Shown here in pieces: positions 35,657 through 51,229 of a stretch of DNA of 64,000 nt. Each line of letters begins with the position of its first letter. Position 1 is the stretch's first letter. The stretch spans positions 3,826,501-3,890,500 of the forward strand of contig NZ_CP132311.1 of NCBI RefSeq assembly GCF_030733845.1, read 5' to 3'. The translations under genes and the position numbers were made by a program. The notes under the pieces were generated by a model. The model ran no database searches. It saw only the letters and a program-made list of their open reading frames with translations, and was not told the DNA's origin. The DNA comes from Shinella zoogloeoides. Lineage in GTDB: Bacteria; Pseudomonadota; Alphaproteobacteria; Rhizobiales; Rhizobiaceae.

Positions 35657-36358
35657 ATGGCCGACGACGACACACCCGCGACCTTCGCCTCGCCGGCCTG
35701 TTTCCTGCACGAGGTCGATCCGGCCTATGCCGGCCTGCCGGGCCCGCTCGACCTGCAGGCCTGGACGGACGTGAAGCGCTGGCGCAGAAACGAACGCGAG
35801 CGCCTCATCGCCGAACGTCTCGCCGTGCCGGCCGAGTTGCGCGCGCGCCAGGGAGAGGCGATCGCGACCGGCGTGCTTGCGCAGATCGGCGATGTCGCCG
35901 GCCGTATCGTCAGCGCCTACTGGCCGTTTCGCGGCGAGCCGGATCTGCGTGCGTTCATGGAAGAAATCGCCGCGCGCGGCGGACGGACCGCCCTGCCCGT
36001 GGTTACGGAAAAGGGGCGGCCGCTGGAATTCCATCTCTGGCAGGTGGGCGAGGCGCTGTCGCGCGGCGTCTGGAATATCCCGATACCTGCCGCGCAACGG
36101 CCCTGCGTACCCGACATCGTGATCGCCCCCGTCGTCGGTTACGATGCGGCCTGCTACCGGCTCGGTTACGGCGGCGGCTTCTTCGACCGCACGCTGGCCG
36201 CCCTGCCGGCAAAACCGCGCGTCATCGGCGTCGGCTACAGCGCGGCCAGGCTCGCGACGATCTATCCGCAGATGCACGATATCCCGATGGACCTGATCGT
36301 CACGGAGGCCGGCGTGGTTCGTCCTCAGGACGTCTCCACCGTGCGCGCATTGACGTAG
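35657..36358 (+). CDS. 5-formyltetrahydrofolate cyclo-ligase
   Basis: 233 residues, with about 35 more at the N-terminus than the E. coli YgfA type. It makes 5,10-methenyl-THF from 5-formyl-THF with ATP. The ATP/phosphate signature is RLGYGGGFFDRTLAALP. The N-terminal Arg-rich helix (KRWRRNERERLIAERLAV) and WPFRGEPDLRAFM are also conserved in the family. It overlaps the convergent MFS gene by 34 bases. Confidence 0.88.
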   Translation: MADDDTPATFASPACFLHEVDPAYAGLPGPLDLQAWTDVKRWRRNERERLIAERLAVPAELRARQGEAIATGVLAQIGDVAGRIVSAYWPFRGEPDLRAFMEEIAARGGRTALPVVTEKGRPLEFHLWQVGEALSRGVWNIPIPAAQRPCVPDIVIAPVVGYDAACYRLGYGGGFFDRTLAALPAKPRVIGVGYSAARLATIYPQMHDIPMDLIVTEAGVVRPQDVSTVRALT

Positions 36359-37599
36359 AGCGCCCGCCCGGCGAACCAGCCGTTTACCGCCGCCCCGAGG
36401 CCGAGCAGCACGAAGAGCACGGCGCTCCAGGCAAAGCTGCCGGTCCAGCCGCGTATGAGGCCGACGACCAGCGGCCCGATGGCGGCGAGCAGGTAGCCGA
36501 CGCATTGCGCCATGCCGGAAAGGTGCGCCGCCACATGCGGATCGCGGGTGCGCAGCACGATGACAGTCATCGCCACCGCGATCAGCCCGCCCTGGCCGAT
36601 GCCCTGCAGCACGGCCCAGAACCAGACCGACCAGAGCGGCGCGAAGAGCAGGCCCAGCAGGGCGACGACGGCGAAGGCGCAGAGCGCCACGTTGATCACC
36701 CGCTGGTCCTTGCCGCGTACGGCAAGATGTGGCGCGAGGAGGCAGGCGCCGGCCTGCACCATCACCGACACCGAGACGATCGCCCCGGCGGTGACGCCGT
36801 CGAGCCCGCGTTCGCGCAGGATCGGCACCAGCCAGCCGAAGACGCAATAGGCAAGCGCCGATTGCAGGCCCATGAAGAAGGTGACGTGCCAGGCGAGCCG
36901 GTCGCGCCAAAGGCCTTCCACGCGAAAGCCGGTGCGCTTGACCTGCGAGCGGGTGGCAAGGACCTGCGGCAGCCAGAGGGCGCCGACGACCAGCGCCGGT
37001 ACGGCCCAGACCGCCAGCGCGCCGTCGAGCGAGCCGCCGAGCGCATGCTCGATCGGCAGCGTCAGGCCGGCGGCGCCCGCCGCGCCGGCGCACAGCGCCA
37101 TCGTGTAGCAGCCGGTCATCAGCGCCGCCTTGTCCGGGAAGTCGCGCTTGACGAGGCCGGGCAGCAGCACGTTGCCGACCGCGATGCACGCGCCGGCGAG
37201 CGCCGTGCCGAGGAAGAGCAGCGGAATGGAGGAGAGGCCGCGCATCGCCGTGCCGAGCGCCAGCAGGAGGATGACGGCGAGCAGCGTGCGCTCCGTGCCG
37301 ATGCGTTGGGCAAGGCGCGGCGCGAGCGGCGAGAACAGGCCGAGGCAGACGACGGGCAGGGTGGTCAGCAGGCTCGCCCCGGTCGGCGAGAGGCCGAGCA
37401 CGGCGCGGATTTCCGGCAGCAGCGCCGAGGCGCTGGAAAAGACCGGCCGCAGGTTGAAGGCGATGAGCACGAGGCTGGCGCCGAGCAGGAAGCGCGCCAG
37501 CGGCGTCGGGGGCCGGTGCGGCTCGGGTGCGGGCACGCTGTCGGCTTCGGCGTCGATCAGGTCGATGGCGCCGGGATCGTTCGGGGCGGGATGGGTCAT
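36325..37599 (-). CDS. MFS transporter, CynX/NimT family
   Basis: 424 residues with 12 predicted membrane helices after a hydrophilic N-terminus of about 35 residues. ASLVLIAFNLRPVFSSASALLPEIR matches the CynX/NimT signature 'l.A.NLRp....vgPll..Ir' in overlapping parts. Family members handle cyanate or efflux nitroimidazoles and other small acids. The start overlaps the stop of the GntR gene by 4 bases (ATGA), so the GntR regulator and transporter are one operon controlled by the dyad at 38280. Confidence 0.87.
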   Translation of the reverse strand: MTHPAPNDPGAIDLIDAEADSVPAPEPHRPPTPLARFLLGASLVLIAFNLRPVFSSASALLPEIRAVLGLSPTGASLLTTLPVVCLGLFSPLAPRLAQRIGTERTLLAVILLLALGTAMRGLSSIPLLFLGTALAGACIAVGNVLLPGLVKRDFPDKAALMTGCYTMALCAGAAGAAGLTLPIEHALGGSLDGALAVWAVPALVVGALWLPQVLATRSQVKRTGFRVEGLWRDRLAWHVTFFMGLQSALAYCVFGWLVPILRERGLDGVTAGAIVSVSVMVQAGACLLAPHLAVRGKDQRVINVALCAFAVVALLGLLFAPLWSVWFWAVLQGIGQGGLIAVAMTVIVLRTRDPHVAAHLSGMAQCVGYLLAAIGPLVVGLIRGWTGSFAWSAVLFVLLGLGAAVNGWFAGRALYVNARTVETS

Positions 37600-38273: not shown

Positions 38274-38279
38274 GATAGT

Positions 38280-38310
38280 AATCACCAAGTCATCGGATGA
38301 CTTGGTGATT
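38280..38310. promoter_or_regulatory. GntR operator, 31-base perfect palindrome
   Basis: AATCACCAAGTCATC (38280-38294) and GATGACTTGGTGATT (38296-38310) are exact reverse complements around one G. Position and symmetry fit an autoregulatory GntR site covering the start region of the GntR-MFS operon. Confidence 0.8.
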
Positions 38311-38376: not shown

Positions 38377-39408
38377 TCATTGCTTGCGCGGCCAGGTATC
38401 AGCAAGGCGATAGCCGGCCGGCCACGGATCGTCCGGGTCGAGCATGACCTGGCTCGTGCCGGTGATCCAGGCGCGGCCGGAGATTTCCGGCACGATGGCC
38501 GGGCGGCCGCCGACCGTCGTCTCGCCGACGATGCGGCAGTCGAAGCGCGAATCGATGATCGAGTAGCCGGAGAAGGGCTGGCCGACCTTGATCTGGCCGC
38601 GGGCATGCAGCACCGCCATGCGGGCCGAGCAGCCGGTGCCGGTCGGCGAGCGGTCGAGCTTGGCCGGCTGGATGACGACCGTGTTGCGGCCGTGCAGCGC
38701 GCCGTCGCGCTCCTCGACCGGCAGGGTGAGCTGGCAGAAGGAGATGTGGTTCCATTCCGGGTTTTCCGGATGGGTGAAGCCGAGCTGTTCGTTCGCGGCC
38801 TTCGTGATGCGGATGCCGGTTTCGGCAAGCTCGCGCGCTTCGTCCGGCGTCACCGAAAAGCCGAGCGCGCGGGCATCGGCGAAGACGAAGCTGTCGCCGC
38901 CATAAGCGGTGTCGACGGTCAGCGTGCCGAGGCCTTCCACTTCCAGCGTCGCATCCAGCTTGTCGGCGAAGGAGGGCACGTTGGTGACGGTGATCCGCTC
39001 GGCCTTGCCGTTGCGGCAGGCGGCGACGACATTGACGAGGCCGCCTGGCGCTTCCAGCACCATGCGGGTCTCCGGCTCGACCATCGGCACGATGCCGCTG
39101 TCGAGCAGCACGGTGGACACGCAGATCGAGTTGGAGCCGGACATCGGCGGCGTGTCCTCCGGCTCCATGATGATGAAGCCCATCGTGGCGCGCGGATCCT
39201 TCGGCGGCACCAGGAGGTTGATGTGGCGGAAGACGCCGCCGCGCGGCTCGTTCAGCACGAAGTTGCGCAGCGTCTTGTCCTCGGCGATGAAATTGCGCTG
39301 TTCCCACAGCGTCGCACCGGGCGGCGGCGCGACCCCGCCGACGATGACGTCGCCCACCTCGCCCTCGGCGTGGCAGGAGACGATGTGGATGACCTTGCTG
39401 CTGCGCAT
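38377..39408 (-). CDS. proline racemase superfamily, probable trans-3-hydroxy-L-proline dehydratase
   Basis: 343 residues with the two-lobed proline racemase fold. The first catalytic position is Ser90 in [11 protein letters not shown], where racemases and epimerases have Cys in MCGHG. The second is Thr257 in [12 protein letters not shown], where they have Cys in RSPCG. Thr at the second position is known from trans-3-hydroxy-L-proline dehydratases (Cys/Thr in the human enzyme), so dehydration to pyrroline-2-carboxylate is more likely than epimerisation. Ser plus Thr together is unusual. ATG 39408 was chosen over a longer frame that reaches the promoter. It is divergent from the GntR gene at 39593 and part of the hydroxyproline island. 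Confidence 0.85.
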
Positions 39409-39480
39409 GGCGTTCTCTCCGTTCTGGCTGGATTGCGCCGAGGGTGCATGCCGTCGACGCCGATGGTCTTTCATAGAAAA

Positions 39481-39500
39481 ATTGGATCCAATATACAATA
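39481..39500. promoter_or_regulatory. candidate GntR site between racemase-family and GntR genes
   Basis: ATTGGATCCAAT (39481-39492) is a perfect palindrome. It runs on into ATACAATA, which read on the other strand gives TTGTATATTGG, similar to the sites at 45259 and 43577. It lies 73 bases before the racemase-family gene and 93 before the GntR gene. Confidence 0.5.
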
Positions 39501-39592
39501 CTGCTCCATCGGGTGCCGTTTGGTGTGTGCTTGTTGCCCCGCTGCCGGTTTCGACCTATGACCGATCTCTCCATTGTCAGGGGCTGGACGTG

Positions 39593-40258
39593 ATGAAATT
39601 TGCTGCCGTCGATGTCAGGCAGGCGGCCTCGGCCGCGGACATCGTCTATGAGGCCATTCGCAAGGCGATCATCGAGGGCGATCTTGCCGAGGGCGAAAGC
39701 CTCCGGCAGGAGGAGCTCGCGCAGATGTTCAACACCAGTCGCATCCCCGTGCGCGAGGCGCTGTCCCGGCTGGAGCAGCACGGCCTCATCACCACCCGGC
39801 GCTACAAGGGCGCGGTCGTCGCGGGCCTCTCCATCGAGGAGATCGAGGAGATCTTCGAGTTCCGGGCGTTGATCGAGGCCGAGGTCATTCGGCTTGCCGT
39901 GCCAAATCTCGACCGGGCGGCGCTTGAGACGGCGCGGCGTTATTGCGACGCCTTCGACAGGGAGACCGACCCGCACCGCTGGAGCGAGATCAACCGGCAA
40001 TTCCACTATAGCCTCTACGAGGCCTCGCGCCGCCCCTATTACCTGCAGAATGTGCGCTCCTCGCTCGACCGGATCGACCGCTATCTGCGCGCCCAGCTCA
40101 CCTTCACCAACGGCGTGCCGCGCGCCGGCCGCGAACACGAGGCGATCCTTTCCGCCTGCGAGAAGGGCGACGCCGATCTCGCCTGCCGGCTGACCCGCGC
40201 CCATATCCTCGATGCGGGAAAATCGCTGGTGACGTTCCTCCGGGAGCAGCGGACGTAG
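39593..40258 (+). CDS. GntR-family regulator (FCD domain), hydroxyproline island
   Basis: 221 residues. The winged helix includes EELAQMFNTSRIPVREALSR (about residues 42-61). The FCD domain covers about 85-215, with EFRALIEAEVIRLAVP and a metal-type His in FHYSLYEAS and HEAILSA. It is divergent from the racemase-family gene, so a hydroxyproline-related ligand is plausible (inference). An adjacent GTG (39590) is an equally good start. The stop is followed by 140 bases and a second GntR gene. Confidence 0.9.
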   Translation: MKFAAVDVRQAASAADIVYEAIRKAIIEGDLAEGESLRQEELAQMFNTSRIPVREALSRLEQHGLITTRRYKGAVVAGLSIEEIEEIFEFRALIEAEVIRLAVPNLDRAALETARRYCDAFDRETDPHRWSEINRQFHYSLYEASRRPYYLQNVRSSLDRIDRYLRAQLTFTNGVPRAGREHEAILSACEKGDADLACRLTRAHILDAGKSLVTFLREQRT

Positions 40259-40366
40259 GTGCGGGCGGGTTTTCCCACCCTTTCTTTTTCGACCTGTCCC
40301 CTTGGCCACTTGACGGCACTTTCGTCAAAATGCCCACTTTAAACGATTGATAGCGTCGACGGAGAA

Positions 40367-40387
40367 TTGTATTTCTTTTGTCGACAA
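40367..40387. promoter_or_regulatory. candidate operator before second GntR gene
   Basis: TTGTATTT (40367-40374) followed by the 10-base palindrome TTGTCGACAA (40378-40387), 11 bases before the GntR start. The same two elements recur at 41108-41139. Confidence 0.6.
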
Positions 40388-40398
40388 GAGGATTTTCG

Positions 40399-41103
40399 AT
40401 GACCGACACCGATTCCAGCTCCCTGCCCGAGCGCAAGCGCGGCTCCGGCGTAAAAATGGTCTACGACCTTCTGCGCGACGAAATTCTCGACCTGAAGCTC
40501 GCCCCCGGCAGCCCCATCGACGAGGTGCAGCTTGCCGAGCGGTTCAAGATGTCGCGCACGCCGATCCGCGAGGCGCTGGTGCGGCTGGCCGGCGAGGGGC
40601 TGATCGAGACCCTGCCGAACCGCTCAACCATGGTGTCGAGCATCGATTTCCTGAACCTGCACACCTTCTTCGATGCGCTGGTGCTGATGTACCGCGTGAC
40701 GACGCGGCTTGCGGCGCAGAACCACCGTCCGGAAGATCTCACCACTATCAGAGGTTTCCACGAGGACTATGCGGCGGCGCTGGCGGTGCGCGATTCCCTG
40801 ACGATGATCGCCACCAACGCGGCCTTCCACGCCGCCATCGCCGAGGCCGGTCGCAATCCCTATTTCACCAGCCTGTTCCGGCGGCTGCTCGACGAGGGCC
40901 GGCGCATCCTGCAGCTCTATTACCAATCCTACGAGGAACAGTTCCCGCAGCGCTTCGTGGATGAGCACGCCGCCATCATCGCCGCGATCGAGGCGCGCGA
41001 CATCGAAGAGGCGGACCGGCTCGGCAAGGCCCACGCCGAGGCGATCGTCGCCCAGGTACAGAAGCTTTTCAGTCGCAACGACAGGCTCGACATCGCGCTC
41101 TGA
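40399..41103 (+). CDS. GntR-family regulator (FCD domain), likely controller of the deaminase gene
   Basis: 234 residues from ATG 40399. The helix-turn-helix is VQLAERFKMSRTPIREALVR (about residues 43-62). The C-terminal FCD domain has NAAFHAAIAEAGRNPYF and HAAIIAAIEARDIEEA. It is separated from the DapA-family gene by 114 bases. Identical TTGTCGACAA palindromes lie in front of both genes, so it probably represses itself and the deaminase gene until a hydroxyproline intermediate appears (inference). Confidence 0.9.
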   Translation: MTDTDSSSLPERKRGSGVKMVYDLLRDEILDLKLAPGSPIDEVQLAERFKMSRTPIREALVRLAGEGLIETLPNRSTMVSSIDFLNLHTFFDALVLMYRVTTRLAAQNHRPEDLTTIRGFHEDYAAALAVRDSLTMIATNAAFHAAIAEAGRNPYFTSLFRRLLDEGRRILQLYYQSYEEQFPQRFVDEHAAIIAAIEARDIEEADRLGKAHAEAIVAQVQKLFSRNDRLDIAL

Positions 41104-41107
41104 GCTT

Positions 41108-41139
41108 TTGTATTTTTCTTGTCGACAAATAAAATACAA
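41108..41139. promoter_or_regulatory. 32-base near-palindromic operator before the deaminase gene
   Basis: TTGTATTTT (41108-41116) and AAAATACAA (41131-41139) flank TTGTCGACAA (41119-41128). Only the two dinucleotides between the blocks break the symmetry. It lies 78 bases before the DapA-family start. TATATC near 41145 could be the -10 box of an overlapped promoter. Confidence 0.75.
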
Positions 41140-41217
41140 GGTGCTATATCCACCATCAGAGAGGGGGAGGCCTGGTTTCGGCCGCCCGCCTGAGCGAACC
41201 GCCAAAAGGAGATCGAC

Positions 41218-42180
41218 ATGAAGGCCAAGATTTTTTCCGGTGTCATTCCCGCCCTGATGACGCCCTGCAAGGACGACCGCAGCCCCGATTTCGACGCGCT
41301 GGTCCGCAAGGGCAAGGAACTGATCGGCAAGGGCATGTCCGCCGTCGTCTATTGCGGCTCCATGGGTGACTGGCCGCTGCTCACCGACGAGCAGCGCATG
41401 GAAGGCGTCGAGCGCCTCGTGAAGGCTGGCATCCCGGTCATCGTCGGCACCGGCGCCGTCAACACCGCTTCGGCCGTCGCCCACGCCGCCCACGCTCAGA
41501 AGGTCGGCGCGCAGGGCCTCATGGTCATCCCGCGCGTCCTGTCCCGCGGCTCGGTCGTCGCTGCCCAGAAGAACCACTTCAAGGCGATCCTGTCCGCCGC
41601 CCCGGACCTGCCGGCCGTCATCTACAACAGCCCCTACTATGGCTTCGCCACCCGCGCTGACCTGTTCTTCGCGCTGCGCGAGGACCACAAGAACCTCGTC
41701 GGCTTCAAGGAATTCGGCGGCGCCGCCGACATGCGCTATGCGGCTGAAAACATCACCAGCCGCGACGATGACGTCTCGCTGATGATCGGCGTCGACACCT
41801 GCGTCTTCACCGGCTTCGTCGATTGCGGCGCCGTCGGCGCGATCACCGGTATCGGCTGCGTGCTGCCGAAGGAAGTCATCCACATGTGCAACCTCGCCCA
41901 GGCCGCTGCCGCCGGCGATCCGGATGCCCGCGCCCGCGCGCTGGAACTGGAATCGGCCCTTGCCGTGCTGTCCTCCTTCGACGAAGGCCCGGATCTCGTC
42001 CTCTACTTCAAGCACATGATGGTGCTGAAGGGCGACAAGGAATACACGCTGCACTTCAACGAGACCGACGCCCTCTCCGACAGCCAGCGCGGCTATGTCG
42101 AATCCCAGCTCAAGCTCTTCGACACCTGGTATGCCGAATGGAGCAAGCTGCCGGGCGCCGTAGAGAAGTACAAGGCCTGA
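41218..42180 (+). CDS. DapA-family lyase, probable pyrroline-4-hydroxy-2-carboxylate deaminase (HypD-type)
   Basis: 320 residues, a DHDPS/N-acetylneuraminate-lyase-family barrel. The Schiff-base Lys164 is in LVGFKEFGG and Tyr136 in VIYNSPYYGF. The N-terminal GVIPALMTPCKDD is also typical. In bacterial hydroxyproline degradation a member of this family deaminates pyrroline-4-hydroxy-2-carboxylate to 2-oxoglutarate semialdehyde. The neighbouring aldehyde dehydrogenase and amino-acid dehydrogenase fit that role. A strong ribosome-binding site (AAAGGAGA) and a strong terminator suggest high expression as a single unit. Confidence 0.85.
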   Translation: MKAKIFSGVIPALMTPCKDDRSPDFDALVRKGKELIGKGMSAVVYCGSMGDWPLLTDEQRMEGVERLVKAGIPVIVGTGAVNTASAVAHAAHAQKVGAQGLMVIPRVLSRGSVVAAQKNHFKAILSAAPDLPAVIYNSPYYGFATRADLFFALREDHKNLVGFKEFGGAADMRYAAENITSRDDDVSLMIGVDTCVFTGFVDCGAVGAITGIGCVLPKEVIHMCNLAQAAAAGDPDARARALELESALAVLSSFDEGPDLVLYFKHMMVLKGDKEYTLHFNETDALSDSQRGYVESQLKLFDTWYAEWSKLPGAVEKYKA

Positions 42181-42202
42181 GTTTCAGGTCACTCCCAATG
42201 AG

Positions 42203-42231
42203 AAAGGCCCTCCGCGAGGAGGGCCTTTTTT
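42203..42231 (+). terminator. terminator of the deaminase gene
   Basis: AAAGGCCCTCC (42203-42213) and GGAGGGCCTTT (42218-42228) with loop GCGA, followed by more T. Confidence 0.9.
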
Positions 42232-42258
42232 CGTTGCTGGTATTTTCCGATTTACCGC

Positions 42259-42414
42259 CTCCTTCTCCTCCGTCATGCCGGCCTTGATCCGGCATCCAGC
42301 CACCGCGCGTCGGCGCGGTGAGAGGACCCTCTCGCCTCTGGATGAGCCTCTCCCGCGCAAGGACTTGCGCGGGCTGGATGCCGGATCAAGTCCGGCATGA
42401 CGGAAGAGAAGGAG
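42259..42414. repeat. long imperfect palindromic intergenic repeat
   Basis: The arms 42259-42300 and 42373-42414 (42 bases each) are inverted copies that differ at only two positions. They start with CTCCTTCTC and contain GTCATGCCGG and GATCCGGCATCCAGC. The 72-base middle holds two smaller hairpins, ACCGCG/CGCGGT near 42302-42319 and CCCGCGCAAG/CTTGCGCGGG near 42352-42373. It resembles the RIME-like palindromic repeats of Rhizobiaceae. A shortened relative may lie near 11681. Confidence 0.8.
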
Positions 42415-42474
42415 GATATGACCGAGAGGCCTCGCCTGGCGGTTGGTTCGCCGGCTAACGAAAAACCCTGGCGC

Positions 42475-43512
42475 TCACGCGATCGCGTCGAGGCCCTTCT
42501 CCAGCAGGCGGTCGAGCTGTTCCACCTCGGCGGCCGTCAGCGTCACGCCTGATGTCTCGGACGCCTTGCGGGCGACGAAGCGACGCTGGGAGGGCAGGCG
42601 GGCGCCCTGGCCGACGATAGCGTCAAACAGCACTTCGGCGCGGGCGAAGGGATCGCCGGGACGGCCCTTGGCGAAGGCTTCCGGCGACAGGGCGATGATG
42701 AGTTCGCCGTGGAACGGGGCCAGCGTCGTCGTGCCGAGATAGTCGAGCACCTCGGGGCTGGTCAGGTCGCCGATCATGATGCCGGCGAGGAGCTCGATCA
42801 TCGTGCCGATGGCCGAGCCCTTGTGGCCGCCGAAGGGCAGCATCGCGCCGGCGAGCGCGGCTTCCGGGTCGGTCGTCGGATTGCCCTCGGCATCGATCGC
42901 CCAGCCCTCGGGCAGTTGTTTGCCGGCGCGGCGGTGCAGCTCGATCTCGCCGCGCGCGGCGACGGAGGTGGCGAAGTCGAAGACATAGGGCGAGCCGTTC
43001 GGCCGCGGCCAGCCGAAGGCGAAGGGATTGGTGCCAAGCAGCGGTTTGTTGCCGCCGGTGGGCGCGACCGTCGCATAGCTCGGGCACATGACGAGGCCGG
43101 CAAGGCCTTCGTTCGTCACGGCTTCCACTTCCGGCCACAGCGCGGAGAAATGCGTGCAGTCGTTGATGACGAGCGCCGCGATGCCGAGTTTACGCGCGCG
43201 TTCGGCAAGGGCCGGCACGCCGAGCTCGAAGGCCGGATTGGCAAAGCCGCCCTTCGCGTTGACCTTGACGATGGCCGAGCCCTCGTTGAGGTCCAGTTCC
43301 GGGATGGCGTCGGCCTTCACCTTGCCGGCCTTGACCGTGCGCAGCGCGCCCTCGATGCGGTAGACGCCGTGCGACTTGCAGGCGTCCCGCTCGCCGGCGA
43401 CGATGACGCGGGCCAGCGCACCGGCCTGCACGGCATTCAGGCCAGCCTTCAGGAAGATCGCTTCGACGCGCGCGTGAAGGGCGGAAATCGTCAGGGTGGT
43501 GGTTTGCGTCAT
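42475..43512 (-). CDS. Ldh2/YlbC-family dehydrogenase, probable pyrroline-2-carboxylate reductase
   Basis: 345 residues of the malate/L-lactate dehydrogenase family (non-Rossmann). Conserved parts are SHGVYRIEGALRTVKAGK, INDCTHFSALWPEVE, APTGGNKPLLGTNPFAFGWP, DFATSVAARGEI and LPFGGHKGSAIGTMIELLAG. Related DpkA/LhpD enzymes reduce pyrroline-2-carboxylate to L-proline with NADPH. That is the step needed after both 3-hydroxyproline dehydratases encoded here. The start at ATG 43512 matches the family N-terminus; the open frame further upstream is antisense to the aldehyde dehydrogenase gene. Confidence 0.85.
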   Translation of the reverse strand: MTQTTTLTISALHARVEAIFLKAGLNAVQAGALARVIVAGERDACKSHGVYRIEGALRTVKAGKVKADAIPELDLNEGSAIVKVNAKGGFANPAFELGVPALAERARKLGIAALVINDCTHFSALWPEVEAVTNEGLAGLVMCPSYATVAPTGGNKPLLGTNPFAFGWPRPNGSPYVFDFATSVAARGEIELHRRAGKQLPEGWAIDAEGNPTTDPEAALAGAMLPFGGHKGSAIGTMIELLAGIMIGDLTSPEVLDYLGTTTLAPFHGELIIALSPEAFAKGRPGDPFARAEVLFDAIVGQGARLPSQRRFVARKASETSGVTLTAAEVEQLDRLLEKGLDAIA

Positions 43513-43563
43513 CGTTCTTCTCTTCAAGGCTGGTGCCGACCGCGACGGTTGGCGATTGAACAT

Positions 43564-43584
43564 TTGCATACATAGAGTATACAA
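43564..43584. promoter_or_regulatory. candidate GntR site between reductase and aldehyde dehydrogenase genes
   Basis: TTGCATAC (43564-43571) and GTATACAA (43577-43584) form an inverted repeat with one mismatch and a 5-base spacer, in the 147-base divergent promoter region. Confidence 0.55.
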
Positions 43585-43659
43585 GATTTCGACAAGTGCA
43601 ATTCGCCCCGCCGTTTCCCATATCGGGCGAATCCCATTCCGAAAGAAAGGTACGTCAAA

Positions 43660-45177
43660 ATGGCTTTCACCCCCAACGGTAAACACCTCGTCGCCGGCGC
43701 GTGGCTCGATGGTAACGGCACCTTCACCTCCTCGCCCGCCCATGGCCCCGCGCATACCTTCGCCGTCGGCACGGTCGAGCTGGTCAACCGCGCTGCCGAG
43801 GCGGCCGAAGAGGCGTTTCTGAGCTACGGTTATGCTCCCCGCGCGACCCGCGCCGCATTCCTGCGCGCCATCGCCGACGAGATCGAGGCCCGCGCCGAGG
43901 CGATCACCGAGATCGGCACGCAGGAAACCGGCCTGCCGGTGGCGCGCTTTCAGGGCGAGCGCGGCCGTACGACCGGCCAGCTGCGCCTTTTTGCCGATCA
44001 TATCGAGAAGGGCGACTATCTCGACCGCCGTTTCGACGCCGCCCTGCCGGATCGCCAGCCGGCGCCGCGTCAGGAAATTCGCCTGATCCAGCGGCCGATC
44101 GGCCCGGTCGCCGTGTTCGGCGCCTCCAACTTCCCGCTCGCCTTCTCGACGGCCGGCGGTGACACCGCCGCCGCGCTTGCCGCCGGCTGCCCGGTCGTCG
44201 TCAAGGGCCATTCGGCCCATCCCGGTACGGGCGAAATCGTCGCCGAGGCCGTTCTCGCCGCGATCGAGAAGACCGGCGTGCATCCGGGCGTCTTCTCGCT
44301 GATCCAGGGCGGCAACCGCCAGGTCGGCGAAGCCGTCGTGCAGCATCCGCTGATCAAGGCGGTCGGCTTCACCGGCTCGCTCGCCGGCGGCCGCGCGCTC
44401 TTCAACCTGTGCGCCGCCCGCCCCGAGCCGATCCCGTTCTTCGGCGAGCTCGGCTCGGTCAACCCGATGTTCCTGCTGCCGGAAGCCCTCAAGGCGCGCG
44501 CCGAAAGCCTCGGCCAGGGCTGGGCGGGCTCGCTCACCATGGGCGCCGGCCAGTTCTGCACCAATCCGGGCATCGCCATCGTCGCCGACGGCGCGGATGC
44601 CGACCGCTTCACCGCGTCCGCCGTCGAAGCGCTCGGCAAGGTCGGCGCACAGACCATGCTGACGGACGGCATCGCCAAGGCCTATCACGACGGCCAGGCC
44701 CGCTTCGAAAGCCGCAACACGGTGAAGCCGCTGTTGAAGACGAACTCGGCCGGCCGCGAGGCGCTGCCGAACCTCTTCGAGATCTCGGGCGACCAGTTCC
44801 TCGCCGACCACGCGCTCTCCGAAGAAGTCTTCGGCCCGCTCGGCCTCGTCGTGCGCGTCTCGTCGGTCGATGAGATGGCAAAGCTCGCCCGCAACTTCGA
44901 GGGCCAGCTGACGACGACCATCCACATGGATGCCGGCGACCTCGATGACGCCAAGCGCCTGCGCCCGATCCTCGAGCGCAAGGCCGGCCGCGTGCTGGTC
45001 AACGGCTTCCCGACGGGCGTCGAGGTGGTGGATTCCATGGTGCACGGCGGCCCGTACCCGGCTTCGACGAATTTCGGCGCGACGAGCGTCGGCACGATGT
45101 CGATCCGCCGCTTCCTGCGCCCGGTTTCGTACCAGAACATGCCGGAAGGCCTGCTGCCGGAAGATTTCCTCAACTGA
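43660..45177 (+). CDS. aldehyde dehydrogenase, probable 2-oxoglutarate semialdehyde dehydrogenase
   Basis: 505 residues. Catalytic Cys300 is in MGAGQFCTNPG, Glu263 in FFGELGSVNP, and the oxyanion Asn in ASNFPLAFSTAGGD. This NADP-type subgroup includes the ketoglutarate-semialdehyde dehydrogenases of hydroxyproline, arabinose and glucarate pathways. Context favours the last step of hydroxyproline degradation, giving 2-oxoglutarate for the TCA cycle. It is divergent from the reductase gene, and a strong terminator follows. Confidence 0.88.
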   Translation: MAFTPNGKHLVAGAWLDGNGTFTSSPAHGPAHTFAVGTVELVNRAAEAAEEAFLSYGYAPRATRAAFLRAIADEIEARAEAITEIGTQETGLPVARFQGERGRTTGQLRLFADHIEKGDYLDRRFDAALPDRQPAPRQEIRLIQRPIGPVAVFGASNFPLAFSTAGGDTAAALAAGCPVVVKGHSAHPGTGEIVAEAVLAAIEKTGVHPGVFSLIQGGNRQVGEAVVQHPLIKAVGFTGSLAGGRALFNLCAARPEPIPFFGELGSVNPMFLLPEALKARAESLGQGWAGSLTMGAGQFCTNPGIAIVADGADADRFTASAVEALGKVGAQTMLTDGIAKAYHDGQARFESRNTVKPLLKTNSAGREALPNLFEISGDQFLADHALSEEVFGPLGLVVRVSSVDEMAKLARNFEGQLTTTIHMDAGDLDDAKRLRPILERKAGRVLVNGFPTGVEVVDSMVHGGPYPASTNFGATSVGTMSIRRFLRPVSYQNMPEGLLPEDFLN

Positions 45178-45199
45178 TTCAAGCCACTGGCTTGCCTCG

Positions 45200-45238
45200 G
45201 GCCGGGTTTTCCGAAAGGAAGGCCCGGCCTGCTTTTTT
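45200..45238 (+). terminator. terminator of the aldehyde dehydrogenase gene
   Basis: GGCCGGG (45200-45206) and CCCGGCC (45223-45229) with an inner TTCC/GGAA stem, then TGC and six T. Confidence 0.85.
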
Positions 45239-45247
45239 CTCCACTGG

Positions 45248-45279
45248 GTATATACTTTTTGTATATTACTTGTATTTTA
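45248..45279 (+). promoter_or_regulatory. candidate regulatory region of the transporter operon
   Basis: GTATATAC (45248-45255) is a palindrome. Two direct repeats, TTGTATATTA (45259-45268) and TTGTATTTTA (45270-45279), follow. The TTGTAT element recurs before the deaminase and reductase genes. The ABC operon starts 76 bases on. Confidence 0.5.
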
Positions 45280-45354
45280 GGGGCGGATTTACGCTCTTGG
45301 CGCAGGACGGACCTCCGCCCGCGTGAATCGCCAGATCAATCCAGGGAGAGAGTA

Positions 45355-46164
45355 ATGAAGAAGACCTCGGTCCTCGCCTTCGGCCTCGTGGCCGCCACCG
45401 CTCTGACCAGCCCGGCCCAGGCCGACAAGCTGGACGACATCATCTCGTCCGGCACGCTGCGCTGCGCCGTCGTTCTCGACTTCCCGCCGATGGGATCGCG
45501 CGACGAGAACAACAACCCGATCGGCTTCGACGTCGATTACTGCAACGACCTCGCCAAGGCCCTCGGCGTCACCGCCGAGATCGTCGAGACGCCCTTCCCG
45601 GAACGTATCCCGGCCCTGATGTCCGGCCGCGTCGATGTCGGCGTCGCCTCGACCTCCGACACGCTGGAACGCGCCAAGACCGTCGGCATGACGGTTCCCT
45701 ACTTCGCCTTCCAGATGGCCGTCACGGCCAACGACAAGTCGGGCGTCAAGTCCTTCGAGGACATGAAGGGCAAGGTCGTCGGCGCCACCGCCGGCACGTT
45801 CGAGGCCATCGCGCTGGAAAAGTCGGTCAAGGAATGGGGCGCCGGCGAATTCCGCCCGTACCAGACCCAGGCTGACGTCTTCCTCGCGCTGAGCCAGGGC
45901 CAGATCGACGCCACGGTCTCCACCTCGACGGTTGCCCAGTCCAACGTCAAGAGCGGCAAGTTCGCCGGCATCTCGGTCGTCGGCAACGCGCCCTACGACA
46001 TCGACTATGTCGCGCTCTTCACCAACCGCGAAGAATACGGCCTGATCAACTACCTGAACCTCTTCATCAACCAGCAGGTTCGCACCGGCCGCTACAACGA
46101 ACTCTACGAGAAGTGGGTCGGCGGCGAAGTGCCCTCCCTTTCGATCAACGGCGTTTATCGCTAA
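45355..46164 (+). CDS. polar amino-acid ABC transporter, binding protein
   Basis: 269 residues. The signal peptide MKKTSVLAFGLVAATALTSP ends at AQA. The mature protein is a family 3 solute-binding protein: LRCAVVLDFPPMG, NPIGFDVDYCNDLAKALG, PALMSGRVDVGVAS and KGKVVGATAGTFEA. It probably binds hydroxyproline or a related amino acid, since the same operon encodes hydroxyproline-type enzymes. It is analogous to the hypMNPQ importer of Sinorhizobium in role only. AGGGAGAG precedes the ATG. A strong stem-loop follows the stop. Confidence 0.9.
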   Translation: MKKTSVLAFGLVAATALTSPAQADKLDDIISSGTLRCAVVLDFPPMGSRDENNNPIGFDVDYCNDLAKALGVTAEIVETPFPERIPALMSGRVDVGVASTSDTLERAKTVGMTVPYFAFQMAVTANDKSGVKSFEDMKGKVVGATAGTFEAIALEKSVKEWGAGEFRPYQTQADVFLALSQGQIDATVSTSTVAQSNVKSGKFAGISVVGNAPYDIDYVALFTNREEYGLINYLNLFINQQVRTGRYNELYEKWVGGEVPSLSINGVYR

Positions 46165-46178
46165 TCTGCCGTTTTGAA

Positions 46179-46207
46179 GGCGGCGCGGGAGCTTCTTCCG
46201 CGCCGCC
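46179..46207 (+). promoter_or_regulatory. intercistronic stem-loop after the binding-protein gene
   Basis: GGCGGCGCGG (46179-46188) pairs perfectly with CCGCGCCGCC (46198-46207) around a 9-base loop without a U-run. Its place between binding protein and permease mirrors the frcB-frcC stem-loop. Confidence 0.6.
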
Positions 46208-46234
46208 GATCGTTTCCGAGGGGTGAGACGGCAA

Positions 46235-46900
46235 ATGTTCAGTTACAATTTTCACTGGAACCAGGCCTTCAAGGCCCTGCCGCAGATGCTGGACGGCGCG
46301 CTCGTCACGCTCCAGATCGCGCTGCTTTCCATGGCCATCGGCCTCGTCGTCGCCCTGGCGCTGACGCTCTTCCGGCTGTCCGGCAACCGCGTCCTGAACG
46401 GCTTCGCCACGGCCTGGGTCGAGATCGCCCGCAACACGCCGGCCCTCTTCCAGATCTACATGGCCCATTTCGGGCTCGGCAATTTCGGCATCCACCTCAG
46501 CCCCTATGCGGCGCTGCTCGTCGGTATCGCCTTCAATAATGCCGGCTATCTCGCGGAAAACTTCCGTGGCGCGCTGAAGGCGATCCCGGAGACGCAGACC
46601 CGCGCCGGCCGCTCGCTCGGCATGACGCCGCTACAGGCCTTCCGCTACATCGTCATGCCGCAGATGCTGCGCATCGCCTTCCTGCCGGCCACCAACCAGA
46701 TGGTCTGGGCGATCCTCATGACCTCGCTTGGCGTCACCGTTGGCATGAACACGGACCTTGCGGGCGTCACCCAGGCGCTGAACGCAGTGTCCTTCCGCAC
46801 GTTCGAATTCTTCGCGCTCGCCGCGGTGATCTACTACCTGATCGCCAAGGCCGTGACGCTCGCCGCCCGGCTCGCCGCCGCGCGCATGTTCCGCTACTGA
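46235..46900 (+). CDS. polar amino-acid ABC transporter, permease 1
   Basis: 221 residues with about five membrane helices. It is a HisM/GlnP-family permease with the EAA loop AGRSLGMTPLQAFRYIVMPQ and the earlier EIARNTPALFQIYMAHFG. It pairs with the next permease to form the membrane channel. GTG 46223 is an alternative start; ATG 46235 gives a normal N-terminus (MFSYNFHWNQAF). The next gene follows 12 bases after the stop. Confidence 0.9.
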   Translation: MFSYNFHWNQAFKALPQMLDGALVTLQIALLSMAIGLVVALALTLFRLSGNRVLNGFATAWVEIARNTPALFQIYMAHFGLGNFGIHLSPYAALLVGIAFNNAGYLAENFRGALKAIPETQTRAGRSLGMTPLQAFRYIVMPQMLRIAFLPATNQMVWAILMTSLGVTVGMNTDLAGVTQALNAVSFRTFEFFALAAVIYYLIAKAVTLAARLAAARMFRY

Positions 46901-46912
46901 GAGGGGTAAGCC

Positions 46913-47563
46913 ATGTTCGATACCTCTCTCACCTGGGCCGATCTCGGCTTCCTCGCGCAAGGCGCCGCCATGACGCTGGCCGTCACCGCGGTCTCCGTTC
47001 TGGCAGGCACCGTGCTCGGCATCTTCTTCGGCGTCGTGCGCAACCAGCTCGGCTCCTACTGGTCGATGCCGATCACCTTCCTGCTCGATGTCTTCCGCTC
47101 CGTGCCGCTGCTCATCCAGCTCGTGCTCGGCAATGCGCTGCAGTCGATCATGAAGCTCGGCTGGGCACCCTTCACCACGTCCTGCGTGGTGCTGTCGCTC
47201 TATACGGCCGCCTATTGCACCGAGATCGTGCGCGGCGGCATTTCCGCCGTGCCGATGACGACCCGCCGCGCCGCCCGCTCGCTCGGCATGACCTGGTGGC
47301 AGGACATGCGCTATATCGTGGCGCCGCTCGCCACCCGTGTCTCGCTGCCGGCCTGGATCGGCCTGACGCTCGGCGTCATGAAGGATTCGGCGCTCGTGCT
47401 CTGGCTCGGCCTGATCGAGCTCCTGCGTGCCTCGCAGATCCTCGTCACGCGCCTGCAGGAGCCGCTGTTCATCCTGCTGATATGCGGCGCCATCTACTTC
47501 ATCATCAGCTTCCCCATCGCCCGGCTGGGCGGGTATCTCGAAAGACGGTGGTCCAATGATTGA
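46913..47563 (+). CDS. polar amino-acid ABC transporter, permease 2
   Basis: 216 residues, five membrane helices. The EAA loop is ARSLGMTWWQDMRYIVAPLA, preceded by YCTEIVRGGISAVPMTTRR, as in HisQ/HisM pairs. DVFRSVPLLIQLVLGNAL is the conserved first-half motif. It overlaps the ATPase gene by 8 bases, so translation is likely coupled. Confidence 0.9.
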   Translation: MFDTSLTWADLGFLAQGAAMTLAVTAVSVLAGTVLGIFFGVVRNQLGSYWSMPITFLLDVFRSVPLLIQLVLGNALQSIMKLGWAPFTTSCVVLSLYTAAYCTEIVRGGISAVPMTTRRAARSLGMTWWQDMRYIVAPLATRVSLPAWIGLTLGVMKDSALVLWLGLIELLRASQILVTRLQEPLFILLICGAIYFIISFPIARLGGYLERRWSND

Positions 47564-48278
47564 GATCGAAAACGTCCGCAAATCCTTCGGCCAGCTTGAA
47601 GTCCTGAAGGGGATCAACCTTACCGTGGAGAAGGGCGAGGTGCTGACCATCATCGGCGGCTCGGGCTCGGGCAAGTCGACGCTGCTGACCTGCATCAATG
47701 GCCTGGAGACCATCGACGCCGGCCGCATCGTCGTCGATGGTACCGACGTCCACGCCAAGGGCACGGACCTCAACAAGCTGCGCCGCAAGCTCGGTATCGT
47801 GTTCCAGCAGTTCAACGCCTTCCCGCACCTGACGGTGCTGGAAAACGTCATGCTCGCGCCGCTAAAGGTGCTCGGCCAGTCCAAGGCCGAAGCGGAGGCG
47901 ATGGCCGTAAAGCAGCTCACCCATGTCGGCCTCGGCGACAAGCTGAAGGTCTATCCGAGCCGCATGTCCGGCGGCCAGCAGCAGCGCATGGCGATCGCCC
48001 GGGCGCTTGCCATGTCGCCGGCCTACATGCTGTTCGACGAAGTGACCTCGGCGCTCGACCCGCAGCTCGTCGGCGAAGTGCTCGACACGCTGCGCATGCT
48101 GGCCTCCGAGGGCATGACGATGATCTGCGTCACGCACGAAATGAAGTTCGCCCGCGAGGTCTCCGACCGCGTCGCCTTCTTCCACAAGGGCGTGATGGCC
48201 GAGATCGCCCCGCCGGAAGCGCTGTTCGGCGCGCCGAAGGACCCGGAACTGCAGGCGTTCCTCGCCGCTACGCACTGA
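47556..48278 (+). CDS. polar amino-acid ABC transporter, ATP-binding protein
   Basis: 240 residues, a single nucleotide-binding domain of the HisP/GlnQ family. Walker A is GGSGSGKST, the signature is MSGGQQQRMAIARAL, Walker B is YMLFDEVTSALD (Val for the commoner Pro, also seen in close relatives), and the switch His is in VTHEMKFA. It energises the two preceding permeases. The dehydrogenase gene starts 4 bases after its stop. Confidence 0.93.
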   Translation: MIEIENVRKSFGQLEVLKGINLTVEKGEVLTIIGGSGSGKSTLLTCINGLETIDAGRIVVDGTDVHAKGTDLNKLRRKLGIVFQQFNAFPHLTVLENVMLAPLKVLGQSKAEAEAMAVKQLTHVGLGDKLKVYPSRMSGGQQQRMAIARALAMSPAYMLFDEVTSALDPQLVGEVLDTLRMLASEGMTMICVTHEMKFAREVSDRVAFFHKGVMAEIAPPEALFGAPKDPELQAFLAATH

Positions 48279-48282
48279 GGCC

Positions 48283-49536
48283 ATGATGAAGACTGAAATA
48301 AAGCCCGGCGTCGTCGTCATCGGCGCCGGCGTGGTCGGCCTTTCCGCCGCGATCGCCGCGCAGGCACGCGGCCTTGTGGTCACCGTTCTTGAGCGCGAGG
48401 GGCCGGCCGCCGGCGCCTCTGCCGGCAATGCGGGCGCCTTCGCCTTTACCGACATCCTGCCGCTTGCCTCGCCCGGCATCCTCCGCAAGGCGCCGAAATG
48501 GCTGCTCGATCCGCTCGGCCCGCTCTCCGTTCCGCCGTCCTACGCCCTGCAGATCGCGCCGTGGATGTTCCGCTTCTGGCGTGCCTGCTCGGCAAAACGC
48601 GTCGCCCATTCCACCGCCGCGCAGACCGCGCTGATGGACCTGTCCAAAGCGGAGCTGGAGCCGTTCCTCGCCGAGACGGGCACGGCGGCGATGCTGCGCA
48701 AGGATGGTAACCTCCAGGTCTATGAGAGCCAGGGCGAGCTCGACGCTTCGCTGCCCGGCTGGAAGGCGCGCGAAGAGCACGGCATCGAATTCCGCCACAT
48801 GGATACCGCCGAAATGGCTGAGATCCAGCCCGGCCTTGCGCCGCGCTTCACGCACGGCACCTTTACCCCCGGCTGGTATTCCATCGCCGATCCGAAGCTC
48901 TACACGCTGGCGCTGGCCGATCATTTCCGAGCAAGAGGCGGCGTGATCGAGCGCGCCGAGGTTTCCAGCCTGCACCGCATCGAGGGTGGCGTGGAAATCC
49001 GCACGACGGACGGCCGGACGCTGCGCGCGCAAAAGGTCGTGCTCGCCGCCGGCGCCTTCTCGCACCAGGTGGCCCGCTCGCTCGGCGAAAACATCCCGCT
49101 CGAAACCGAGCGCGGCTACAACACGACGCTGCCGGCCGACGCCTTCGACCTGCGCACGCAGGTCACCTTCGGCGGCCACGGCTTCGTCGTCACCCGGCTT
49201 TCGACCGGCATCCGCGTTGGCGGCGCGGTGGAGCTTGGCGGACTGAAGCTACCGCCGAACTTCCGCCGGTCGGAAGCCATGCTGGAAAAGGCGAGGCGCT
49301 TCCTGCCGGGCCTGAAGCCTGCGGATGGTGTGCAATGGATGGGCTTCCGCCCGTCGCTGCCCGACAGCCTGCCGGCCATCGGCCGCGCCCGGGCGACGCC
49401 CGATGTCGTCTATGCCTTCGGCCACGGCCATCTCGGCCTCACCCAGTCGGCTGGCACCGCGCGCCTCGTCGCCGATCTCCTCACCGGCGGCAAGCCCACG
49501 ATCGACATCGCCTCCTTCTCGCCACAGCGCTTCTAG
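48283..49536 (+). CDS. FAD-dependent D-amino-acid dehydrogenase/oxidase, probable D-hydroxyproline oxidation
   Basis: 417 residues, DadA/glycine-oxidase family. The FAD-binding [17 protein letters not shown] with the acidic ribose-binding Glu in [16 protein letters not shown] opens the protein. C-terminal [16 protein letters not shown] and [15 protein letters not shown] complete the FAD site. In hydroxyproline degradation such an enzyme oxidises cis-4-hydroxy-D-proline to pyrroline-4-hydroxy-2-carboxylate. Gene fusion into the transporter operon supports that role. ATG 48286 is an equally possible start. Confidence 0.85.
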
Positions 49537-49546
49537 GAGCCTTCAA

Positions 49547-51229
49547 ATGGCCGAACTCTCCGCCCGCAGCATTCTTTCCGGAACAGCCTCCGGTCCGATC
49601 ATCGCGGCCGGGGAGGCGTTGAGTTTCTGGGGCGGCGTCGATCCGGCGACCGGCCGCGTCATCGACGTGCACCACCCGCTGCACGGCGTCTCGATCACCG
49701 GCGGCATCCTGATGATGCCGTCGAGCCGCGGCTCCTGCACCGGCTCCGGCGTCCTGCTCGACCTTGCCTTGACCGGCCGCGCGCCCGCCGCGCTGATCTT
49801 CAGCGAGGCCGAGGACGTGCTGACGCTCGGCGCGCTGATCGCCGCGGAAATGTTCGGCAGGTCCCTGCCGGTGCTGCGCCTGTCGCACGATGCCTTCGAC
49901 GCGCTCTGTCGCGCGAAGACGGCGCGGATCGGCGAGACGGCGATCGAGGCGGACGGCCTCGTGATCCCCGTCGCCCCGCCCGCCACGGCCGCGCTCGACC
50001 TCACCGATGACGACCGCGCCATGCTGGACGGCCGCGACGGCATCGCCGTGCAACTCGCCTTGCGCATCACCGTCGCCATGGCCGCCCAGCAGGACGCGGG
50101 AAAGCTGGTCGACGTGGTGCAGGGCCATATCGACGGCTGCATCTATGCCAGCCCCGCCAACCTCACCTTCGCGGAGAAGATGGCCGATATGGACGCGAAG
50201 GTGCGCGTGCCGACCACGATGAACGCCATCTCCGTCGACCGGGCGAACTGGGAAAAGCAGGGCGTGCCGCACGATTTCGGCGACCCCGCCGCCCGCCTTG
50301 CCGATGCCTATGTGCGCATGGGCTGTCGCCCGACCTTCACCTGTTCGCCCTACCTGCTCGACAGCGCGCCGAAGACCGGCGAGGCCATCGCCTGGGCGGA
50401 ATCCAATGCCGTGATCTTCGCCAATACCGTGCTCGGCGCCCGCACGGCGAAACATCCCGATTTCCTCGATCTCTGCATCGCGCTGACCGGCCGCGCGCCG
50501 CTGTCAGGCGTCTATCTGGAGGAGCACCGCAAGGCGCGCCGCGTCATCGATGTCGAATTGCCCGACAATGTGGACGACGCCTTCTGGCCGCTCGTCGGCT
50601 ATCTCGCCGGCCGCGCCGCGCCCGACCGCATCCCGCTGCTCACCGGCCTTGCCGCGGCAAAGCCGACCCGCGACGACCTGAAGGCCCTTTGTGCCGCCTT
50701 CGGCACCACCTCCGCCGCGCCGATGCTGCATATCCAGGGCGTAACGCCCGAGGCGGACGGCGCGGTCGCGCCGGATGCGGACCGCACGGCCATCACAAAA
50801 GCCGAGATGATCGATGTCTGGCGGATGTTCAACGACGGCCCCGATGCCGTCGAGCTCGTCGCCATCGGCAGCCCGCATGCCTCGCTGTCGGAATGCCGCG
50901 CCTTCGCCGACGCCCTCGGAGATCGCCAGCGACATCAGGACGTGACCGTGATCGTCACCGCGGGCCGGGATGTCATGGCGGAAGCCCGCGACGTGCTGGC
51001 GCGCCTCAGGGCAAGCGGCGTCGAGGTCCTGCCGGACCTTTGCTGGTGCTCGATCTCCGAACCCGTCTTCCCGCCGAAAACGCGCGCGCTGATCACCAAT
51101 TCCGGCAAATACGCCCATTACGGCCCGGGCCTGTCCGGCCGCACCGTGCGTTTCGGCAGTCTTGCCGATTGCGTCGAGGCGGCGCTGACCGGCCGCGTGC
51201 CGCCGCGCCTACCGGCCTGGCTCGCCTGA
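49547..51229 (+). CDS. aconitase X, fused small and large subunits; probable cis-3-hydroxy-L-proline dehydratase
   Basis: 560 residues. Residues about 1-145 are the DUF126 small domain, with [20 protein letters not shown] and its conserved Ser/Gly loop. About 175-560 are the DUF521 large domain, with [34 protein letters not shown] and [17 protein letters not shown]. Cys residues in TCSPYL and LCWCSIS are candidate iron-sulfur ligands. Bacterial aconitase X proteins of this kind dehydrate cis-3-hydroxy-L-proline to pyrroline-2-carboxylate; archaeal ones act on mevalonate-5-phosphate. The hydroxyproline neighbourhood favours the former. The start was set at ATG 49547, 10 bases after the dehydrogenase stop. 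Confidence 0.88.

Follow-up and report, generated by a model that had tools for sequence, protein, structure and literature searches.

The window analysed here, a stretch of 64,000 nucleotides of Shinella zoogloeoides DNA (contig NZ_CP132311.1; C2:3826501-3890500 in a 5.18 Mb genome), carries at 38377..51229 an island of genes that is very probably the hydroxyproline catabolic (hyp, or Lhp) cluster of a Shinella-like rhizobium, with the 4-hydroxyproline epimerase most likely encoded by an unlinked Ser/Cys homologue and with putative regulation by the GntR-family proteins HypR and GntR2. The island is the already known, standard rhizobial hyp/Lhp cluster, and its gene combination is not unusual; all that appears to go beyond the known cluster is the outsourced epimerase and a three-way split of control.

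Twelve genes lie within the island, in the order racemase-superfamily gene (-), GntR2 (+), hypR or GntR3 (+), hypD (+), hypS (-), hypH (+), hypMNPQ (+), hypO (+) and hypX (+), and the open reading frame list and profile searches show all the named proteins to be encoded by intact reading frames (Table 1). This bears out a sequence-only reading made earlier, which had placed the named enzymes, an importer and two GntR regulators within 13 kb; a third FCD/GntR gene lies just outside. The same reading had the importer fused into an operon with the dehydrogenase and aconitase X. The four genes of the ATP-binding cassette (ABC) importer, hypMNPQ (45355-48278), are followed after 4 bases by hypO, and hypO after 10 bases by hypX, a tight spacing consistent with one operon; the operon-like run thus stands, while no gene fusion was found.

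Eleven of the 12 genes correspond to genes of the Sinorhizobium meliloti hyp cluster, at 70.5-90.3% protein identity, the twelfth being GntR2. The two clusters share genes and order from hypR to hypX (79.1-90.3% identity) as well as TTGTCGACAA sites before hypR and hypD. They differ in that S. meliloti has an annotated 4-hydroxyproline epimerase gene (hypRE) between hypO and hypX, which the Shinella island lacks; in the position of the hypY-like gene, downstream of hypX in S. meliloti but here upstream and divergent from its own regulator, GntR2; and in the hypD-hypS interval, which spans 294 bases here and holds a DUF1232 gene in S. meliloti. The S. meliloti order, hypR-hypD-hypS-hypH-hypMNPQ-hypO-hypRE-hypX-hypY, was taken from CP090105.1 (L083), and the gene names are in part those we take to be current and in part those of PMC5343134. 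In CP090105.1 the cluster lies in a 1.66 Mb record titled pSymA of S. meliloti Ak57, which may be mislabelled. SMb tags presumably denote pSymB. The strain 1021 gene bears such a tag in a passage of PMC5144071.

Among the hypH-type loci compared, which were the best 80 of 578 relatives and in which the nearest named relatives of hypH are those of S. fusca and Shinella sp. H4-D48 (95%), a hypO match is present in the stretch examined in 22 and absent in 58. In four of the latter (L005, L015, L040 and L074), hypH is accompanied by hypR, hypD and hypS; the remaining 54 were set aside. Shinella sp. PSBB067 (L084) has the whole block in the same order, including the flanking GntR1 and UDP-glucose dehydrogenase genes, and the order from hypR to hypX recurs in Sinorhizobium, Ensifer, Mesorhizobium and other loci, some with an epimerase gene and some without. 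Because of this collinearity, we rejected the island as a chance collection. Between the same flanks, Shinella sp. H4-D48 (L005, 5903 to beyond 11574) keeps only hypR, hypD, hypS and hypH, a short form also found in L015 and L074; its genome holds one racemase-family match, of the Ser/Cys type, and nothing closer to HypO than a protein of 37% identity.

The 10 bases between hypO and hypX leave no epimerase gene there, and a hypRE-type protein was not found in the genome, where the best match reaches 35%; a hypRE located elsewhere was rejected on that score. The genome encodes exactly two PF05544 proteins, namely the Ser/Thr protein of the island and a Ser/Cys protein whose gene, on a circular contig, would lie 166-178 kb from the island; this gene is the only epimerase candidate in the window genome. 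Its product has the residues of the Ser/Cys-type 4-epimerases; structures that it matches include 4q2h (610.8 bits) and 4lb0 (557.5 bits), the latter being the Agrobacterium vitis 4-epimerase solved with trans-4-hydroxy-L-proline, as described in part of PMC4113996. A tblastn search with the island proteins in the 20 kb around the gene matched only the Ser/Cys gene itself. Judged by active-site motifs and structure matches, the missing 4-hydroxyproline epimerase is most likely this unlinked homologue. The earlier statement that the island covers most of the 4-hydroxyproline route therefore holds, as only the 4-epimerase is missing locally and one good candidate exists elsewhere in the genome. 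Both racemase-family types likewise occur together in A. vitis, with Avi_0518 (Ser/Cys 4-epimerase, 4lb0) and Avi_7022 (Ser/Thr t3HypD, 4k7g), according to the same portion of PMC4113996.

Within the genus, the Ser/Cys gene is present at 93% identity or more in 21 of 21 genomes and full-length aconitase X in 19, and a protein more than 37% identical to HypRE occurs in one (61%); of the best-scoring racemase-family proteins, one per genome, 19 are of the Ser/Thr type and two of the Ser/Cys type. One genome without aconitase X (G008) has its Ser/Cys gene at the same coordinates as in the L005 genome. For the comparison across islands, the search covered 24 genomes or records, belonging to L084 and to 23 of the 80 loci, with L015, L040 and L074 outside. 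The resulting epimerase table has 23 rows, comprising 22 of these and the window genome, L005 having been dropped (no hypO or hypX) along with L059 (partial hypRE, many frame breaks). The Ser/Cys gene (at least 76% identical) is found in 10/10 islands without hypRE versus 2/13 with it (Fisher p = 6.7e-5, kinship ignored). On the tree, hypRE changes five times and the Ser/Cys gene six times; independent pairs number one on well-supported branches and five on all branches, the two traits go opposite ways in 0.8 of random pairings, the sign test gives p = 1, and the complementarity of the Ser/Cys gene and hypRE is limited by shared ancestry. Some hypRE-less genomes hold further racemase-family proteins (27-60% identity), and the Ser/Cys gene is for this reason not the only epimerase candidate everywhere. 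In L059 (Rhizobium sp. RCAM05350), a partial hypRE-type reading frame stands between hypO and hypX, which may be a sequencing error, since the locus contains several broken matches.

The racemase-family protein of the island (PF05544, 455.1 bits) passes the cut-off of the dehydratase equivalog NF047722 (650.3 bits versus 550), matches the structures 4k8l (595.7 bits) and 4k7g (572.8 bits), and carries the motifs SGSNSIC and DRSPTGTG, that is, Ser/Thr where classical members have two Cys. With Thr at the second site and at most 206.8 bits in the epimerase models (cut-offs 376-450), it does not qualify as a 4-hydroxyproline 2-epimerase, and as a classical Cys/Cys epimerase it was rejected because its active-site residues differ. 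The A. vitis Ser/Thr enzyme (4k7g) was solved as a trans-3 dehydratase, and its cluster is termed functionally heterogeneous in the available text of PMC4113996. It is conceivable, though unlikely, that the island protein is bifunctional and also carries out the 4-epimerase step, which would make the island self-contained and leave the Ser/Cys gene to serve something else. Excerpts of PMC5343134 name hypY an alternative 4-hydroxyproline epimerase, and the promoter of the Ser/Cys gene has no island sites, so that gene and island are not obviously co-regulated; against such a double function stand the equivalog score, the want of a second Cys, the non-catalytic orientation of the Thr in the A. 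vitis enzyme (PMC4113996, in part) and the distribution of the Ser/Cys gene in islands with and without hypRE, although relatedness may be its cause.

For cis-3-hydroxy-L-proline, the candidate enzyme is HypX, which has the domains PF04412 and PF01989 and passes the NF051439 cut-off. It scores 929.7 bits with 7cnp, the Agrobacterium aconitase X of type I (AtAcnX), and keeps 13/13 of its active-site residues, given as W35, S70, C71, T72, D203, I206, C273, E292, S293, C508, C510, K530 and Y534 in a section of PMC8184944 (positions placed by hand from the 7cnp alignment). In what was checked, no feature of hypX was found to differ from AtAcnX or from Pseudomonas aeruginosa LhpI, as far as passages of PMC5144071 describe the latter. 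HypD matches 4mpq (632.3 bits), 2hmc (629.3 bits) and 5czj (623.3 bits), with the fourth structure at 87.7 bits, and HypH scores 970.7 bits with 3v4c. We take 5czj to be S. meliloti HypD and 3v4c to be an S. meliloti protein. The activities of HypO, HypS, HypD and HypH are general background wherever they go beyond PMC4113996 and PMC5343134. The best structure for HypS is 1wtj, a delta1-piperideine-2-carboxylate reductase (227.8 bits), and, as stated in part of PMC4113996, proline ketimine is reduced by MLD2 (Ldh2-type) enzymes encoded next to such racemase-family genes. D-amino acid dehydrogenase models rank top for HypO, below cut-off. HypS, HypO and HypH were assigned from 86.1%, 82.8% and 86.5% identity to the S. 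meliloti genes at matching places. A proline dehydrogenase domain at C3:366915 lies in a 1251-residue frame, as in PutA. The steps of trans-3-, cis-3- and 4-hydroxyproline degradation to which the enzymes had been assigned before hold at the family level, two dehydratases passing NCBI equivalog cut-offs and the rest resting on S. meliloti identity.

The data themselves show gene content and order, family membership, catalytic residues, the conservation of promoter motifs and how the epimerases are distributed; from these we infer the substrates, regulation and flux of the island. Hydroxyprolines would be brought in by the HypMNPQ importer. Both trans-3-hydroxy-L-proline, through the Ser/Thr racemase-family dehydratase, and cis-3-hydroxy-L-proline, through aconitase X, would yield delta1-pyrroline-2-carboxylate, which HypS would reduce to L-proline, with PutA next. 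The 2-epimerase, for which the Ser/Cys homologue encoded at a distance on this contig is the most likely candidate, would convert trans-4-hydroxy-L-proline to cis-4-hydroxy-D-proline, from which HypO, HypD and HypH would lead to alpha-ketoglutarate. Probably, HypR governs the main island via sites centred on TTGTCGACAA and related ones, and GntR2 the trans-3 dehydratase gene. The gene set of racemase family, D-amino-acid oxidase (DAAO), dihydrodipicolinate synthase (DHDPS), aldehyde dehydrogenase and MLD2 reductase is known and enzyme-assayed, and S. meliloti and Agrobacterium tumefaciens grow on trans-4- and weakly on trans-3-hydroxyproline (PMC4113996, Table 3 and accompanying passages). Passages of one paper on Shinella and hydroxyproline make no mention of hydroxyproline use by Shinella.

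The putative GntR2 operator, ATTGGATCCAATATACAAT, occurs at up to two mismatches in only that one place in the genome and not at all in the control. Its 12-base palindrome is exact in 16/17 same-genus loci with GntR2 and in 0/2 without it; L006 and L084 were left uncounted, their gene sets being the same as those of L110 and L107, and L059 was unusable because of a broken match. At 30.6% identity to the S. meliloti regulator, GntR2 is not its orthologue. Two loci of the genus (L092 and L094) have no GntR2 in the stretch; there, the hypR promoter and its ATGTCGACAAG site lie directly opposite the dehydratase gene, as if the latter had passed to HypR control. For the remaining motifs we compared 18 loci (17 for hypR), leaving out L027, L028, L035, L037, L050, L059 and L075; L009 and L083 belong to one species. 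The repeats at hypM and between hypS and hypH are A+T-rich and related, and TATACAA is absent between hypS and hypH in the three Sinorhizobium loci and L004. HypR is described in excerpts of PMC5343134 as a GntR repressor of hyp genes, autoregulated in 32/46 genomes. The idea of a unified system, put forward earlier for hydroxyprolines that might come from collagen or plant walls, is only partly right: the known hyp/Lhp cluster, collinear elsewhere, does stand together, but a divergent regulator and a promoter palindrome of its own set the trans-3 dehydratase gene apart.

A different palindrome, TCTGATATATCAG, lies 47 bases before the start of the Ser/Cys gene, and CTGATATATCAG occurs in the 200 bases upstream of that gene in 9/13 loci. 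None of the island sites searched for was found in these 200 bases (L002 and 12 relatives), except a bare GTCGAC in 2/13, and control of the unlinked epimerase through island HypR or GntR2 sites was rejected accordingly. The only two other near-copies of TCTGATATATCAG in the genome (1 mismatch) are just upstream of a GntR/FCD gene at C2:1501660-1502280, whose product, we infer, may regulate the Ser/Cys epimerase. Together, the motifs suggest three regulatory modules, namely hypR with the main island, GntR2 with the dehydratase gene, and a third module to which the unlinked epimerase belongs. It is possible, if not quite probable, that in the Shinella lineage the in-operon Cys/Cys HypRE gave way to an unlinked Ser/Cys epimerase with a different regulator, for which this GntR protein is the candidate.

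The absence of hypRE from the operon, here and in nine other compared islands, could also indicate that the main task in this lineage is the use of D-proline and 3-hydroxyproline, with HypO and HypS turning D-proline into L-proline and the 4-hydroxyproline branch a residue after hypRE loss. HypO and HypS are said to act on D-proline in S. meliloti (Chen et al., 2016, reportedly). We regard this as highly unlikely, as hypD and hypH, which no branch but that for 4-hydroxyproline requires, are intact, hypD retains its TTGTCGACAA site, and a 4-epimerase-type gene is kept in all 21 genus genomes. It is hardly credible that the genes act on some other cyclic or D-amino acid and just look like a hydroxyproline cluster: for HypO, HypS and the importer, only homology and context point to a specificity, but both dehydratases score above the cut-offs of hydroxyproline-specific models and the genes are collinear with S. 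meliloti hypR to hypX.

Several points weigh against our interpretation of the island as a hydroxyproline cluster with an outsourced epimerase. The reaction of the island Ser/Thr protein is not fixed by sequence alone. The Ser/Cys protein stays below all NCBIfam epimerase cut-offs (PRK13971, 242.4 bits versus 376), though these models may not cover the Ser/Cys type, and HypS, HypO and HypH pass no NCBIfam cut-off in the tables of models shown. The TTGTCGACAA core is not rare, TTTGTCGACAAA at up to one mismatch occurring in 6 places in the genome versus 7 in the control. S. meliloti 1021, A. tumefaciens C58 and P. aeruginosa PAO1 show no growth on cis-3-hydroxy-L-proline in Table 3 of PMC4113996, and passages of PMC5144071 report that P. 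aeruginosa uses it only slowly, 72% in 20 days; the cis-3 branch may therefore be of little weight for growth. Growth on trans-4-hydroxyproline is normal in an S. meliloti mutant of the gene discussed for cis-3 use, in a result cited within those passages of PMC5144071.

At the edge of the island, GntR1 is kept close to it in L005, L006 and L084, has no counterpart among the annotated features around the S. meliloti cluster, and is probably outside the hyp system. A CynX/NimT-type major facilitator superfamily transporter gene (36325-37599; 369 bits, cut-off 406) overlaps its end, and the two are probably an independent pair. Between hypD and hypS, a long inverted repeat at 42272-42403, parts of which recur near 62.0-62.5 kb, looks like a dispersed extragenic repeat, and a GC-rich terminator-like hairpin with a T run (end 42231) lies 3' of hypD.

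Table 1. Features of the island and of related loci. Positions are those of the window unless a contig is named. Starts likelier than those of the mechanical open reading frames are used at 39408 (dehydratase), 39593 (GntR2), 40399 (GntR3), 43512 (Ldh2-type reductase), 45355 (binding protein) and 49547 (aconitase X).
Feature	Position	Strand	Basis
Ser/Thr racemase-family trans-3-hydroxy-L-proline dehydratase (hypY-like)	38377..39408	-	NF047722, PF05544; 70.5% to S. meliloti HypY
GntR2, FCD-type regulator divergent from dehydratase gene	39593..40258	+	Pfam GntR + FCD
hypR (GntR3), FCD-type regulator	40399..41103	+	79.1% to S. meliloti regulator at matching place
hypD, DapA-family pyrroline-4-hydroxy-2-carboxylate deaminase	41218..42180	+	PF00701; 88.1% to S. 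meliloti
hypS, Ldh2-type delta1-pyrroline-2-carboxylate reductase	42475..43512	-	PF02615; 86.1% to S. meliloti
hypH, alpha-ketoglutarate semialdehyde dehydrogenase	43660..45177	+	PF00171; 86.5% to S. meliloti
hypM, periplasmic binding protein of ABC importer	45355..46164	+	PF00497; 90.3% to S. meliloti
hypN, ABC permease	46235..46900	+	TIGR01726 102.4 bits, cut-off 42.2; 85.5% to S. meliloti
hypP, ABC permease	46913..47563	+	TIGR01726 55.0 bits, cut-off 42.2; 86.6% to S. meliloti
hypQ, ABC ATPase	47556..48278	+	amino-acid importer ATPase families top, below cut-offs; 82.5% to S. meliloti
hypO, flavin adenine dinucleotide (FAD)-dependent cis-4-hydroxy-D-proline / D-proline dehydrogenase	48283..49536	+	PF01266 227 bits; 82.8% to S. 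meliloti
hypX, aconitase X (cis-3-hydroxy-L-proline)	49547..51229	+	NF051439 935 bits, cut-off 700
GntR1, FCD-type GntR regulator, outside the span	37596 to about 38276-38288	-	Pfam GntR + FCD
Putative GntR2 operator ATTGGATCCAATATACAAT	39481..39499		between dehydratase gene and GntR2
Putative HypR operator TTGTCGACAA before hypR	40378..40387		exact in 15/17 loci, no shuffled control
Putative HypR operator before hypD, within TTGTATTTTTCTTGTCGACAAATAAAATACAA	41119..41128		TTGTCGACAA exact in 18/18 loci, no shuffled control
Putative operator TTGCATACATAGAGTATACAA between hypS and hypH	43564..43584		TATACAA in 14/18 loci, no shuffled control
Putative operator TTTGTATATTACTTGTATTTT before hypM	45258..45278		TTGTATA in 14/18, TTGTATT in 17/18 loci, no shuffled control
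Unlinked Ser/Cys proline racemase superfamily gene, 4-epimerase type	C2:79133-80167 (L002:1474-2508)		SGSNSIC + DRSPCGTG
GntR/FCD regulator	C2:1501660-1502280 (L179:5661-6281)	-	adjoins siroheme synthase and nitrite/sulfite reductase genes

With this island, a known pathway gains a well-resolved member. If our reading of the epimerase is right, a hyp cluster without an epimerase gene need not mean that the 4-hydroxyproline route is absent, as the gap can be filled by an unlinked paralogue with another active-site type and another promoter palindrome, and pathway annotation based on the neighbourhood only would overlook such a split epimerase. If the replacement of HypRE by a separately regulated Ser/Cys epimerase in the Shinella lineage is true, trans-4-hydroxyproline use would begin with a step that answers to a signal other than that for the remaining pathway.

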